From Planctomycetes bacterium GWF2_41_51 (GTDB lineage: Bacteria; Planctomycetota; Phycisphaerae; Sedimentisphaerales; UBA12454): a DNA stretch of 35,100 nucleotides. Made by a program: the position numbers and the translations under genes. Shown one piece after another: positions 12,001 to 34,521 of this stretch. The stretch lies in assembly GCA_001825665.1 (NCBI GenBank), contig MHXZ01000115.1:1-35100 (forward strand), written 5' to 3'. The notes under the pieces are model-generated. The model had not been told where the DNA came from. It saw nothing but the letters and a program-made list of their open reading frames with translations, and did not search any database. Positions within the stretch are counted from its first letter, which is position 1. Every line of letters starts with the position of its first letter.

Positions 12001-13431
12001 TTAAACTTTGAGTTCCGTAATTTTATTAATTTTTCCGCGATATTTTCTAATCGCAGGTTTTACAATTTCATTTATAAACTCTGTTACTTGCTCAGGAGCC
12101 CTGCCGATATAATCTCCGGCATTTAAAACTTTTCTAAAATCAACCTTCGAAAAATCTTCATCGGCTTTGAGTCTTTCAATCAAATCGTTTGGATTTCCAA
12201 ATTTTTTGACCTGCTCTGCCGCTGCGTGCGAATGAACTCTGATTTTTTCGTGAAGTTCCTGACGATTCCCGCCAGCTTTTACAGCAGCCATCAAAATATT
12301 TTCAGTGGCCATAAACGGCAGTTCGGAATTAATCCTTGCCGCAATAACCTTCGGATAAACTACAAGGCCGCTTGTTACGTTAATCAATATTTCCAATATT
12401 CCATCGGCAGCAAGGAACGCTTCAGGAATAACAACTCTGCGGTTCGCAGAATCGTCGAGTGTTCTTTCGAGCCACTGCTCTGCGGCGGTCATCTGCGGAC
12501 TGCTCGAGAGACTTAACAAAAATCTCGAAAGCGCCGTTACACGTTCGCACCGCATTGGATTGCGTTTATAAGCCATTGCCGAAGAACCAATCTGCGACTT
12601 TTCAAATGGCTCTTCGATTTCCTTGAGGTTTGCAAGTAAGCGAATATCATTACACATTTTGTGTGCCGATTGTGCGATGTTCGCAAGTGAATTTATTATG
12701 AGGGAATCTACTTTGCGTGAATAAGTCTGACCGGTAACAGGGCAGAGTTTTTCAAAATTAAATGCTTTAGTGACCGCTTTGTCGAGCTGTTTTACTTTAT
12801 TGTGATTACCATTGAAAAGTTCAAGGAACGATGCCTGCGTACCCGTGGTTCCTTTGACACCTCTAAACGGAATGTTTGCAATTCGATATTCAATTTCAGA
12901 AAGGTCAGTAACAAAATCATTGCACCAGAGAGTCGCGCGTTTGCCGACGGTGGTCAATTGTGCAGGTTGAAAATGAGTAAAACCAAGTGTCGGCATTTTG
13001 CGATAAGTTTTTGCGAATGCACTGAGACCATCGATAAGGCTTGCCAGTTTGCCCGCAATAATCTGCATCGCGTTTCGCATAATAATTAAATCAGCGTTAT
13101 CTCCGACATAGCAGCTTGTCGCGCCAAGATGAATAATCGGTGCAGCTTTCGGTGCAGCTTCTCCAAAAGTATGGACGTGTGCCATTACATCGTGGCGGAA
13201 TTTTTTCTCATATTCCGCAGCTTTGTCAAAATCGATATCATCGAGATGGTCGGCCATTTGACTGATTTGAGCCTGTGAAATTTTCAGGCCGAGTTTCTTT
13301 TCAGCCTTTGCAAGTTCGAGCCAGAGTTTTCGCCAGGTTGAAAATTTCGTCTGATTGCCAAATAATTCCGCCATTTCCTTTGACGCGTTCCGCTCAACAA
13401 GAGGAGAACTGTAAACATTATGATTTTTCAT
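12001..13431 (-). CDS. purB: Adenylosuccinate lyase, long eukaryote-like type
   Basis: The 476-residue lyase removes fumarate from SAICAR and adenylosuccinate in purine synthesis. The superfamily signature is at about 283-292 ([10 protein letters not shown], with Ala where Pro is usual). Other conserved blocks are [54 protein letters not shown] and [19 protein letters not shown]. From memory these match the animal ADSL type more closely than the short B. subtilis type (about 430 residues). The ATG overlaps the end of the upstream aldo/keto reductase by four bases, so the two are coupled. Confidence 0.96.
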
Positions 13432-25757: not shown

Positions 25758-28628
25758 CTATTTGCTCTTTTTAGCCTTTTTTGCAGGTTTACCCTTAGCG
25801 GCTTTATCCGCAATAGCAGCCTGAGCAGCGGCCAAACGTGCAATCGGAACCCTGAACGGTGAGCAGGAAACGTAGTTCATACCGATTTTATGGCAGAATT
25901 TAACGCTTGCCGATTCGCCGCCGTGTTCGCCGCAGATACCAACTTTAAGGTCTTTGCGTGTCGAACGGCCTTTTTCGATTCCCATTTTAACGAGCATTCC
26001 AACGCCGTCCTGATCCAGACTCTGGAACGGGTCAGCCTGGAAGATGCCCTTACCGCCGTCTTTTTCGTTGGCGACATAAATTGGCAGGAATCTGCCGGCA
26101 TCATCACGTGAAAGACCAAGCGTCATCTGGGTCAAATCGTTTGTGCCGAATGAGAAGAACTCCGCAACTTCCGCAATCCGGTCAGCCAGCAATGCAGCAC
26201 GTGGAATTTCAATCATCGTGCCGATCATATATTTAACTTTTGCCTTCGCAGCCTTGATGAGACCGTCTGCAAGAGCGCGAGCCTGGTCAACCTGAATCGA
26301 AAGTTCCTTCTTATCGATTGTCAGCGGAATCATTATTTCCGGCAGCACCTTTACACCCGCTTTTGCACAGACGATAGCCGCATTGATAATCGCTGTTACC
26401 TGCATATCGAGAATTTCTGGATATGTGATGCACAGACGGCATCCGCGATGGCCGAGCATCGGATTTGATTCGTGAAGCTGTTCGCAGCGATGTTTAATCT
26501 TATCAGGACTAATGCCTGTTATCTTGCTGAGCTTCGCAACGCCTTCGTCATCTTTCGGTGTGAACTCATGAAGCGGCGGGTCAATCAGACGAATCGTTAC
26601 TGGTTTGCCGTTCATCGCCGTGAAGATACCTTCGAAATCCTTCTGCTGGAACGGAAGCAGTTTTGCAAGAGCCTCTTTGCGTTTTTCAAGGCCTTCTGCA
26701 ACAATCATTTCCTGGATTGCAAGACGACGCTCTTCTGTATCGAAGAACATATGTTCTGTCCTGCAAAGACCGATACCTTCGGCACCCTTCTGCTGGAACG
26801 GAAGCAGTTTTGCAAGAGCCTCTTTGCGTTTTTCAAGGCCTTCTGCAACAATCATTTCCTGGATTGCAAGACGACGCTCTTCTGTATCGAAGAACATATG
26901 TTCTGTCCTGCAAAGACCGATACCTTCGGCACCCATCTTAATCGCGTTTTCTGCATCATAAGGAGTATCTGCGTTTGTGCGAACCTTAATTGTACGCAGC
27001 TCATCGGCATATTTCATAATTGTCTGATAAGCCGGCGGCTGTTGAGGTAATTCCAGTGCCAACTGTCCGAGATAAACATCGCCGGTGTTGCCGTCAAGAG
27101 TCAGGAAATCGCCCTGTTTGATTGTTTTATCGCCGACTGTCATACTCTTTGTTTCGTTGTTAATATTAAGAGCTTCGCAGCCTACGATACAGCATTTGCC
27201 CCAGCCGCGTGCAACTACAGCAGCGTGACTTGTCTTGCCGCCTGTCGCGGTCAAAATGCCGATCGCTGCGTGCATACCGCCGACATCTTCCGGACTTGTT
27301 TCTTTTCTGACGAGCAGAACTTTTTCGCCAAGGTCTGCCATTTCTTCAGCTTCTGCAGCGGTGAATACTACTTTGCCCGATGCGGCGCCTGGAACAGCAT
27401 TGATGCCCGTCGCAATTTTTGTCGAACTCTTCGCGGCCTTTGCGTCAAGCTGCGGATAGAACAATCTTTCAATATCTTCAGAAGTGATTCTTGCGACCGC
27501 TTCTTCTTTGGTCAGCAGTTTTTCTTTAACCATATCGGCTGCAATTTTAAATACCGCAGCGGCAGTTCGCTTGCCTGTTCTGCACTGAAGCATAAACAGT
27601 TTTTCTTCCTGAACTGTGAATTCCAAATCCTGCATATCTTTGTAATGTTTTTCGAGATGCAGACGAACCTGGCAAAGTTGTTTGTAAGCTTTCGGCAGAA
27701 GTTTGCCAAGCTCAGAAAGTTTCATTGGTGTTCTGATACCTGCGACAACATCTTCGCCCTGTGCGTTGATAAGGCAATCGCCGTAGAATGTATTTTCGCC
27801 TGTGTTCGGGTCGCGTGTAAAGCAAACGCCTGTACCCGATGAATCGCCCATATTGCCGTACACCATTGTCTGAACGTTTACAGCGGTACCTTTAAGATTG
27901 TTGATTTTTTCAACCTGGCGATACTTAACAGCCTTGTCAGCTTCCCAGCTTCCGAATACTGCACCGATAGCGCCCCAGAGTTGTTCATAAGGATCCTGCG
28001 GGAATGACTGACCTTTCATATTATCTGAATAGAATTTCTTAAATTGATTGCAGAGGTCTTTCAGGTATTCAGCATTAAGTTCCGGGTCGGTTTTAACGCC
28101 GGCTTTTTTCTTTGCGTTATGCAGCATATCTTCCATCGGCTCTTTAGAAAGGCCCATAGCTGTTGTGCTGTACATCTGGATAAATCTGCGATATGCATCA
28201 TAAGCAAAACGCGGATTGCTGGTTTTCTTTGCAAGACCTTCGACAGATTTGTCGTTGAGGCCGAGATTAAGAATTGTTTCCATCATACCGGGCATCGAAC
28301 GTGCCGCACCTGAACGAACAGAAACAAGAAGCGGGTCATTGACATCGCCGAATTTTTTGCCCATTTGTTTTTCAACTTTCGCCATATTTTCGCGAATCTG
28401 TTGTTTGACTGCGTTAGAAAGTTTTCTGCCCTGCTTATAGTAGTCTTCGCAATCTGCGACAGAGATTGTGAATCCCGGAGGAACTGGCAAACCGGCAGCC
28501 GTCATATCGGCAAGACCTGCGCCTTTGCCGCCGAGTATCATCCTTCTTTCGGCGTCTGTTTTCGCGACGCTCATACCTTCGGCTTTGCCTGCACCGAAGA
28601 AGAAAACTGTTTTCTTACTTTTAGCCAT
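25758..28628 (-). CDS. ppdK: Pyruvate, phosphate dikinase, with internal 49-residue duplication
   Basis: From ATG 28628 the protein has 956 residues; AAGGAG at 28644-28639 supports this start over upstream codons. It interconverts pyruvate, ATP and Pi with PEP, AMP and PPi. The nucleotide-binding domain has GGKGAGLADM and SVRSGAARSMPGMM, the swivel domain has the phospho-His468 in GGKTSHAAVVARG, and the PEP/pyruvate barrel has GIGLCRTEHMFF, GTNDLTQM and GICGEHGGE. A perfect repeat places residues 566-614 again as 615-663, doubling the strand with the essential Arg of GLCRTEH. Without it the length (907) would be near normal. An in-frame insertion of this kind could impair the barrel or be tolerated. 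A strong promoter and a terminator flank the gene. Confidence 0.95.
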   Translation of the reverse strand: MAKSKKTVFFFGAGKAEGMSVAKTDAERRMILGGKGAGLADMTAAGLPVPPGFTISVADCEDYYKQGRKLSNAVKQQIRENMAKVEKQMGKKFGDVNDPLLVSVRSGAARSMPGMMETILNLGLNDKSVEGLAKKTSNPRFAYDAYRRFIQMYSTTAMGLSKEPMEDMLHNAKKKAGVKTDPELNAEYLKDLCNQFKKFYSDNMKGQSFPQDPYEQLWGAIGAVFGSWEADKAVKYRQVEKINNLKGTAVNVQTMVYGNMGDSSGTGVCFTRDPNTGENTFYGDCLINAQGEDVVAGIRTPMKLSELGKLLPKAYKQLCQVRLHLEKHYKDMQDLEFTVQEEKLFMLQCRTGKRTAAAVFKIAADMVKEKLLTKEEAVARITSEDIERLFYPQLDAKAAKSSTKIATGINAVPGAASGKVVFTAAEAEEMADLGEKVLLVRKETSPEDVGGMHAAIGILTATGGKTSHAAVVARGWGKCCIVGCEALNINNETKSMTVGDKTIKQGDFLTLDGNTGDVYLGQLALELPQQPPAYQTIMKYADELRTIKVRTNADTPYDAENAIKMGAEGIGLCRTEHMFFDTEERRLAIQEMIVAEGLEKRKEALAKLLPFQQKGAEGIGLCRTEHMFFDTEERRLAIQEMIVAEGLEKRKEALAKLLPFQQKDFEGIFTAMNGKPVTIRLIDPPLHEFTPKDDEGVAKLSKITGISPDKIKHRCEQLHESNPMLGHRGCRLCITYPEILDMQVTAIINAAIVCAKAGVKVLPEIMIPLTIDKKELSIQVDQARALADGLIKAAKAKVKYMIGTMIEIPRAALLADRIAEVAEFFSFGTNDLTQMTLGLSRDDAGRFLPIYVANEKDGGKGIFQADPFQSLDQDGVGMLVKMGIEKGRSTRKDLKVGICGEHGGESASVKFCHKIGMNYVSCSPFRVPIARLAAAQAAIADKAAKGKPAKKAKKSK
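26639..26934 (-). repeat. Perfect 147-bp tandem duplication inside ppdK
   Basis: The 147 bases at 26641-26787 are repeated without a mismatch at 26788-26934; the identity extends two bases upstream of each copy. The unit is exactly 49 codons, so the reading frame is kept. It encodes GAEGIGLCRTEHMFF through LLPFQQK. Absence of any difference, even at silent sites, points to a very recent event or an assembly artefact. Confidence 0.97.
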
Positions 28629-32628: not shown

Positions 32629-34521
32629 ATGGACAGATTTGGGGCTAATATCAGAATTCCAGCATTATTACTCTCTATTATTGCCTTTAGTATGATTTTT
32701 TTCAGCGGCTGTGGAGAGGCATTTAACGATAAACCCGGTGAACTCGAAGCAAGGGCGACACTAAGCGACATAAGTCAAACCAGGGCCAACCCAAACGTAA
32801 ATAACCCCCTTCCCGAGATGTACTTTCAGCCTCCGCAAAGAGTTAATGTATTGGATGGTGTGAAACTCTTCTATTTCACAAGGCAGCAGCCGGCAGCCCA
32901 GATGGCCGAGATTATTGCAAATCAGCTTGGTTACAAGGTAACAGCGAATGATGCTACTAATCAGCTTGTTATACATTGTGCCAATGACCAGGATGCTGAC
33001 AAGGCATTGGAATTCTTAAATGCTATCGATTTGCCTCCCATTCAGGTCAACATCGACTGTATGATTGTCGAACTCTACGCTGATAAGACTTTTGACAGGG
33101 AAACAACAATAGACATACAGAATCTCTTCGGTGAAGATTTTACCTTGGGCGGTAAAGTTGACAGCAAAGGAAATCTGTTGCCCACTTTCCCAGGCGCTTC
33201 CCTTCGTGAAGCAAAACGTTCATTTTTTGGTATGCCGATAGGCTATTCGAGCGATACTGTCAACATCCTTGTCGATATGCTTGTTTCAAGAGGATATCTC
33301 AAGATTCTTATGAATCCTACTATTGAAACGGTAAACGGCAAAAAAGCAAAAATTCTTTCAAGAGACGATGTTCCTATTGAAAAAATCGTTACCCAGCAAA
33401 ATGTATTGCCGTATTCCATTACCGAGTATCAGTGGGTCGAAGACTCTCTCCAGGTTACTCCGCACGTTTACGCCGATGGCTCGGTGGGCCTTAATACCGA
33501 AATAAAAATTGGTTCCAGTACAAAACCAAAAGGTGTTGTTCAGGCCTCCGTTATTACAGAACGTTCTATTATCGTCGATGAAAACCGCATTAGACCCGGC
33601 AACAGCTTGATTATTGGCGGAATCAGGAGAACTGAAAAACGCGACGTGCTTCGCGGAGCTCCATTTTTAAAGGACCTCCCGGTTGTTGGTTTACTGTTTT
33701 CAAGCCGCGATTATGAAGAGTCAGGCACAGAACTTATTTTCATTCTCACGCCCAGCATTTCTTCTGGCGGTATGGAATACGCCAAAATGCTTGAATTCGT
33801 ACAAAAAAAACAAGCAGGCCCGAAATATGACCCAGGCCTGGAAAAAGCTTTAAGTGATCCGTTTGGTGACAAGGCTTACACCGAACATATCAAACAAAAA
33901 GCTTCTGAAGCCACAACAGAAAAGGCAAGAATTGAAGCCGAAGCCGCAAAAATCGTGGCAGAGGCTGAAAAAACAAAGATGGAATCCGAACATGCAACTG
34001 CGGAAGCGGAAAATGCGGTAGCACAGGCCGAAAAAGCAAAAGCCGAAGCCGCTATGGAAAAAGCACGGGCTGAAAAACTTCAAACTGAATCGGAAAAAGC
34101 AAAGGCCGAGGCCGAGAAAACCAAAGCTGAAGCTGATAACGCAAGAGCGATGGCAGAAAAGGCAAAGGCCGAAGCTGATGCCGATAAACTCGAGACAGAG
34201 AAAATTAAGGCAGAAGCCGAGGAGGCCAAAGCCAGGGCCGCAAAATCTCAGGCAGAAGCCGAACAGGCAAAAGCCGAAGCCGACAGCGTAAAATCGCAAG
34301 CGGAAAAAGCACAAGCTCAGGCTGAAAAAGCGCAAGCAGAAGCCGACAGAATGAAAGCTGAAGCGGAGAAGGTTAAGGCTCAGGCCGAACAGGCACAGGC
34401 TGAAGCTGACAAAGCAAAAGAAGAAGCTGCCAAAGCTGCACAGGAAAAAATCCAGGCATTGGAAACAACTCAGGATGCCAATCAGGCCGACCCGAACACA
34501 GACCCCAATCAGCCGAATTAA
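32629..34521 (+). CDS. Lipoprotein secretin with long Ala/Glu/Lys coiled-coil tail
   Basis: The 630-residue protein starts with a hydrophobic signal and a lipobox-like FSGC (Cys28), so it is likely a lipoprotein. Residues about 75-130 form a small N-domain with a KVTANDATNQLVIHC ring-building-like motif. The secretin core (about 135-385) has VNIDCMIVELYAD, the amphipathic ETVNGKKAKILSRDDVPIEK and the C-terminal signature ENRIRPGNSLIIGGIRR...LPVVGLLF...ELIFILTPSI, typical of type II/III secretion and pilus secretins. From about 424 to 610 a run of AEKAKAEAE-like heptads predicts a coiled coil of about 190 residues, followed by an Asp/Asn/Pro tail. Most secretins lack such a tail. No secretion partner genes lie nearby. 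No Shine-Dalgarno is obvious. Confidence 0.87.
   Translation: MDRFGANIRIPALLLSIIAFSMIFFSGCGEAFNDKPGELEARATLSDISQTRANPNVNNPLPEMYFQPPQRVNVLDGVKLFYFTRQQPAAQMAEIIANQLGYKVTANDATNQLVIHCANDQDADKALEFLNAIDLPPIQVNIDCMIVELYADKTFDRETTIDIQNLFGEDFTLGGKVDSKGNLLPTFPGASLREAKRSFFGMPIGYSSDTVNILVDMLVSRGYLKILMNPTIETVNGKKAKILSRDDVPIEKIVTQQNVLPYSITEYQWVEDSLQVTPHVYADGSVGLNTEIKIGSSTKPKGVVQASVITERSIIVDENRIRPGNSLIIGGIRRTEKRDVLRGAPFLKDLPVVGLLFSSRDYEESGTELIFILTPSISSGGMEYAKMLEFVQKKQAGPKYDPGLEKALSDPFGDKAYTEHIKQKASEATTEKARIEAEAAKIVAEAEKTKMESEHATAEAENAVAQAEKAKAEAAMEKARAEKLQTESEKAKAEAEKTKAEADNARAMAEKAKAEADADKLETEKIKAEAEEAKARAAKSQAEAEQAKAEADSVKSQAEKAQAQAEKAQAEADRMKAEAEKVKAQAEQAQAEADKAKEEAAKAAQEKIQALETTQDANQADPNTDPNQPN

Follow-up and report, generated by a model that had tools for sequence, protein, structure and literature searches.

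The window, by which we mean the whole 35,100-nucleotide stretch of DNA analysed here, is the entire contig C115 of the metagenome-style assembly of the environmental Planctomycetes bacterium GWF2_41_51 (GCA_001825665.1; 4.83 Mb in 138 contigs, 95.6% complete, 3.8% contamination). On its minus strand, at positions 25758–28628, lies the only gene of this genome for pyruvate, phosphate dikinase (PPDK), an enzyme of sugar metabolism. The gene has 956 codons plus a stop, with the start Met at 28628. The encoded protein scored 1340.9 bits against the NCBIfam profile TIGR01828 (cut-off 843.45) and matched PPDK_N, PEP-utilizers and PEP-utilizers_C in Pfam, and its closest relatives in the PDB are PPDKs. 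A single collinear TIGR01828 match is usual, though not strictly required, in members of the family; here the match fell into two stretches because of a duplication of 49 amino acids. The split profile match is thus the trace of a mutation inside a member of the PPDK family, not the mark of a separate family.

The duplication was seen when the window was compared with itself at a period of 147, where 149 consecutive bases were identical (26639–26787 versus 26786–26934), confirming two adjacent 147-bp copies without a single base difference. The array extends exactly over 26639–26934 and its copies are arranged head to tail. On the minus strand, copy 1 (26787–26933, edges ambiguous by 2 bp) encodes residues 566–614, beginning with GAEGIGLCRTEHMFF and ending with LLPFQQK, and copy 2 (26640–26786) encodes the same 49 residues again as 615–663; the in-frame translation bears out this recurrence, and the unit contains the motif GIGLCRTEHMFF as the preliminary description stated. 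Because 147 is 3 × 49, the reading frame is kept, and the array has neither a stop nor a frameshift. Tandem Repeats Finder and a direct-repeat search each recovered the array independently, the latter as the sole direct repeat of at least 30 bp within the window. A perfect tandem copy of 147 bp cannot have arisen by chance. The encoded PPDK has 956 residues versus about 907 expected, and removal of one copy does give a protein of normal length (907 aa; relatives, about 900–940 aa).

An antisense open reading frame at 26472–27050 was considered as a gene and rejected, since it contains the repeat only through its overlap with the array. Elsewhere in the window, positions 33850–34400 hold low-complexity repeats rich in Ala, Glu and Lys (AEAEKAKAEA...), which form the C-terminal end of a secretin-like open reading frame (32629–34521) and include one 15-bp tandem repeat at 34249–34278.

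By alignment, the duplicated unit comprises strand 2 of the PEP/pyruvate TIM barrel together with the helices that come after it. The alignment also supports the earlier statement that the unit carries an active-site Arg: the equivalent of Arg561 is found twice, at 574 and 623. The complete set of catalytic equivalents was located by motif (H468, R574 and R623, R680, E807, N830, C899), and H468, R680, E807, N830 and C899 each occur once. They correspond to His455, Arg561, Arg617, Glu745, Asn768 and Cys831, whose roles are established for the PPDK of Clostridium symbiosum.

Relatives were found among Planctomycetota metagenome-assembled genomes. The comparison set consisted of 107 other aligned PPDK open reading frames, some of them present twice because they came from two collections, and every one (107/107) had one copy of the unit and no other internal duplication of a like kind. 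The segment between two conserved anchors of the alignment was 76–80 aa long, or 103–113 aa in a second PPDK lineage, versus 127 aa here. Single-copy relatives reach 83–88% identity overall and 88–93% over matched segments; for the closest three (L004, L005 and L006) the values are 87–88% across the full alignment with the gap counted, and 90–93% over matched segments. A DNA query spanning the junction found no full-length match in other genomes among 148 order-level genome entries, and a 31-residue junction peptide matched only the source genome among 392 phylum-level entries, the remaining 391 giving no match. Together, the junction searches covered about 540 genome entries. The PLSDB plasmid collection likewise gave no match. 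The nearest relatives differ from the unit by 22–37 of its 147 nucleotides; the two copies differ from each other by none. The absence from relatives, including those that are 83–88% identical, therefore makes the event specific to this genome and very recent, unless the two copies have been held identical through ongoing exchange.

Two PPDK lineages occur in the host genus and order (loci L004–L032 and L033–L112). Members of the first are at least 83% identical to the protein of the window, with the next relatives in Omnitrophota and Spirochaetes at about 66–70%, and members of the second are 50–59% identical, many of them with an extra barrel segment of about 28 residues. This distribution suggests horizontal transfer or replacement of PPDK. 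Within the genus, the genomes with the first lineage (G000, G001, G002 and G005) have a pyruvate kinase (PF00224) and those with the second (G003, G004 and G006) do not; beyond the genus this rule has exceptions.

The breakpoints of the duplication sit in an imperfect direct repeat of about 20 bp, 16 of whose approximately 20 bases match in register, with a perfect 10-bp core, GATACCTTCG. On the plus strand the core lies at 26625–26634 on the left side, where it encodes the EGI of DFEGIF, and at 26919–26928 on the right side, where it encodes the EGI of AEGIGL; it appears a third time at the novel junction (26772–26781). The left position was obtained from the in-register breakpoint alignment and the other two from this alignment together with the self-match. 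Both repeats thus encode Glu-Gly-Ile, and in the single-copy ancestor they were 147 bp apart. Comparison of the junction with the flanks placed the crossover between the copies at 26785–26788, at a CC dinucleotide a few bases past the core. Homology of this kind is rare: an in-register match of at least 10 was found nearby in 0 of 33,470 control pairs at distance 147 over the whole window, and comparable homology occurred at a rate of 1.1e-4 in random pairs from the genome at distances of 60–400 bp. In the closest relative, L004, one base interrupts the core and both motifs and their spacing are conserved.

The locus therefore combines the marks by which a slippage duplication is recognized, namely exact head-to-tail copies, breakpoint homology beyond chance and single-copy relatives. 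Such homology at the breakpoints is what replication slippage or template switching leaves behind, and as a class of mechanism this is well supported; for the exact molecular route we infer replication slippage. During replication, the end of the nascent strand would have re-paired at the upstream repeat, and slippage between the two Glu-Gly-Ile-coding copies would have duplicated the 147-bp segment in frame. The suggestion that the duplication is very recent finds support in its absence from relatives, the zero differences between the copies and the slippage-type homology, all of which are direct observations.

The preliminary description had also offered an assembly error. In its favour, the sequence comes from a fragmented assembly (138 contigs), some contigs of which contain N gaps. 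In this case the genome would have one copy, and a chimeric read, a contig join or gap-filling would have made the duplicate in the assembly or the library. The unit length is near a common short-read length, and PCR template switching likewise uses short homology. However, there are no Ns at the duplication site, and de Bruijn assemblers require the junction k-mers to be present in reads. The join lies a few bases past an imperfect homology, a place that exact-overlap joining would not choose, and overlaps between contig ends measure 18–95 nt, never near 147.

A second event in the same genome bears on this question. When 120 contig stretches (2.13 Mb of the 4.83 Mb) were sampled, only two exact tandem duplications longer than 60 bp were detected, the 147-bp one and another of 111 bp (37 codons) on contig C99 (locus L216, ~12894–13130). 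The latter lies, in frame, close to the 3′ end of the gene for a PssE/Alg13-like glycosyltransferase and encodes the C-terminal end of the protein; an Alg14-like gene adjoins this gene. It has a 12-bp core, ATTTCATTTTCA, at its breakpoints, and its crossover again lies a few bases past the core. Homologues of the glycosyltransferase in relatives match only as far as about residue 155–165 of its 204, as one would expect if they have one copy. As a control, 0.77 Mb of loci from other genomes contained no exact tandem duplication, although this set is small and PPDK loci are over-represented in it. Near-exact repeats elsewhere in the sampled genome (L133, L165 and L120) were examined as comparable events and rejected as diverged, older repeats (82–89% alike). 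The two events of one kind may reflect an elevated slippage rate in the lineage or a shared artefact. Against the artefact stand the rarity of such duplications in the 2.13 Mb, their different lengths (147 and 111 bp), which fit no fixed k-mer size, and the fact that both lengths are multiples of 3 (chance 1 in 9). We therefore regard an artefact as unlikely, disfavoured as it is by the breakpoint homology, the in-frame length, the second independent event and the lack of Ns, and consider with good confidence that the duplication is a real mutation. The number of copies is a separate matter; short reads have about the length of the exact 147-bp repeat, and the two copies as assembled could therefore stand for three, or for alleles mixed in the population.

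Instability is to be expected of an exact 147-bp tandem repeat, which should revert to one copy at an appreciable rate. One may then ask if the locus is a reversible, phase-variable on/off switch of PPDK, with formation and collapse at high rate and both states in the population; the preliminary description had named a phase-variable expansion as an option. The repeat should indeed be easily deleted, its anatomy is the same as that of the pneumococcal capsule-gene cases cited in PMC4243769 and PMC4022640, and the second event hits a polysaccharide glycosyltransferase. However, only one state was seen, in one genome, so that the claim of phase variation is not supported, and relatives show no recurrence at the site (107 aligned open reading frames; 148 + 392 genome entries). 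Nor do the closest relatives retain the core in its perfect 10-bp form, so that nothing points to a maintained slippage site, and PPDK serves metabolism and is no surface antigen. We consider such a switch very improbable. A fixed and selected variant, in which the extra segment is maintained and changes how active PPDK is, how it is regulated or how it oligomerises, would agree with the kept frame and the intact catalytic residues. It would also agree with the sister-lineage PPDKs, which are naturally longer by about 28 residues at this place in the barrel and so show that the region tolerates a change of length. Their natural insert is, however, of unrelated sequence and not a repeat, and the zero divergence of the copies together with their absence in all relatives gives no sign of maintenance over time; we think that selection of this kind is hardly to be expected.

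The reading that we prefer, and hold to be likely, is a single, very recent, in-frame 147-bp tandem duplication in the sole PPDK gene that arose by slippage or template switching and is tolerated by the cell. How the protein might accommodate it was explored with AlphaFold. MAFFT aligned the relatives either all on copy 2 (alignment A1) or all on copy 1 (A3), and the two alignments were used as opposite cases; a balanced alignment with relatives on both copies was attempted and given up, as MAFFT placed all of them on one copy. With A1, the model contained a complete eight-stranded barrel in which residues 619–623 of copy 2 formed strand 2 and copy 1 was an insert with a pLDDT of about 30–65. 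With A3, the eight-stranded barrel was likewise complete; residues 570–574 of copy 1 formed strand 2 and copy 2 was looped out as a low-confidence insert, so that the copy serving as strand 2 in each model follows the alignment supplied. The A1 model matched PPDK crystal structures with Z of 44–49 over 827–868 residues. A nine-stranded barrel was also considered, but it was seen in neither model.

Judging from the models, either copy could thus take part in a normal barrel. Most likely, by prediction, one copy would fill the place of strand 2 in the usual eight-stranded barrel, and the chain would extrude the other as an insert of 49 residues. That extra residues can be taken up here is shown by the sister PPDKs with their natural insert of about 28. 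The duplicated enzyme would then probably have lost some stability or activity without necessarily being dead, and the earlier idea of a longer, possibly impaired or altered dikinase is plausible as a prediction. A bolder extension, in which the two identical beta-alpha segments compete for one place in the barrel and give two interchangeable forms, with the reversible duplication acting as a metabolic switch, seems to us a long shot.

A weaker PPDK could be tolerated because the same genome has a pyruvate kinase gene on contig C93 and a further PPDK_N-family protein, in an 888-aa frame, on contig C23. Judged by membership in these families, PPDK need not be the sole route between PEP and pyruvate, and the two proteins would be what allows the cell to live with the duplicated enzyme.

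The duplication belongs to an ordinary and already well-known class of mutation, and it is its position in an active site that is unusual. It captures cleanly, in an enzyme of core metabolism, an intragenic duplication that is still new and whose breakpoint homology can still be read. If real, it also provides a natural test of the ability of a TIM-barrel enzyme to cope with a second copy of an active-site strand and helix. At the same time it is a caution that outliers of gene length in metagenome assemblies need read support.

Compared with known PPDKs (TIGR01828; 1DIK, 1KBL, 1VBG and 5JVL), the protein has the same domain order and overall fold at 52–54% identity, and the catalytic His and the equivalents of Arg617, Glu745, Asn768 and Cys831 are common to both. 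It differs in having 49 extra residues, in carrying the segment of strand 2 and Arg561 twice and in matching the profile in two overlapping stretches, not one. Spontaneous intragenic tandem duplications that cause reversible phase variation are known from pneumococcal capsule genes (Waite et al. 2001 for cap3A; 2003 for cap8E and tts), as cited in PMC4243769 and PMC4022640. Those duplications likewise lie inside an open reading frame and are expected to be reversible; reversible switching was reported for them, whereas the present case shows a single state in one assembly, keeps the frame and concerns a metabolic gene. The open-licence literature yielded no paper that describes a tandem duplication of this kind in a PPDK, and a search on segment duplications in T4 lysozyme or in TIM barrels turned up nothing direct. 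Tandem segment duplications have been engineered into single-domain proteins such as T4 lysozyme and the yeast PRAI barrel and studied by experiment. In those proteins one of the identical segments can take the native place while the other is accommodated as an insert, and the same is predicted for the PPDK described here. The difference is that those duplications were engineered and studied, whereas the PPDK duplication is natural and its accommodation is a prediction only.
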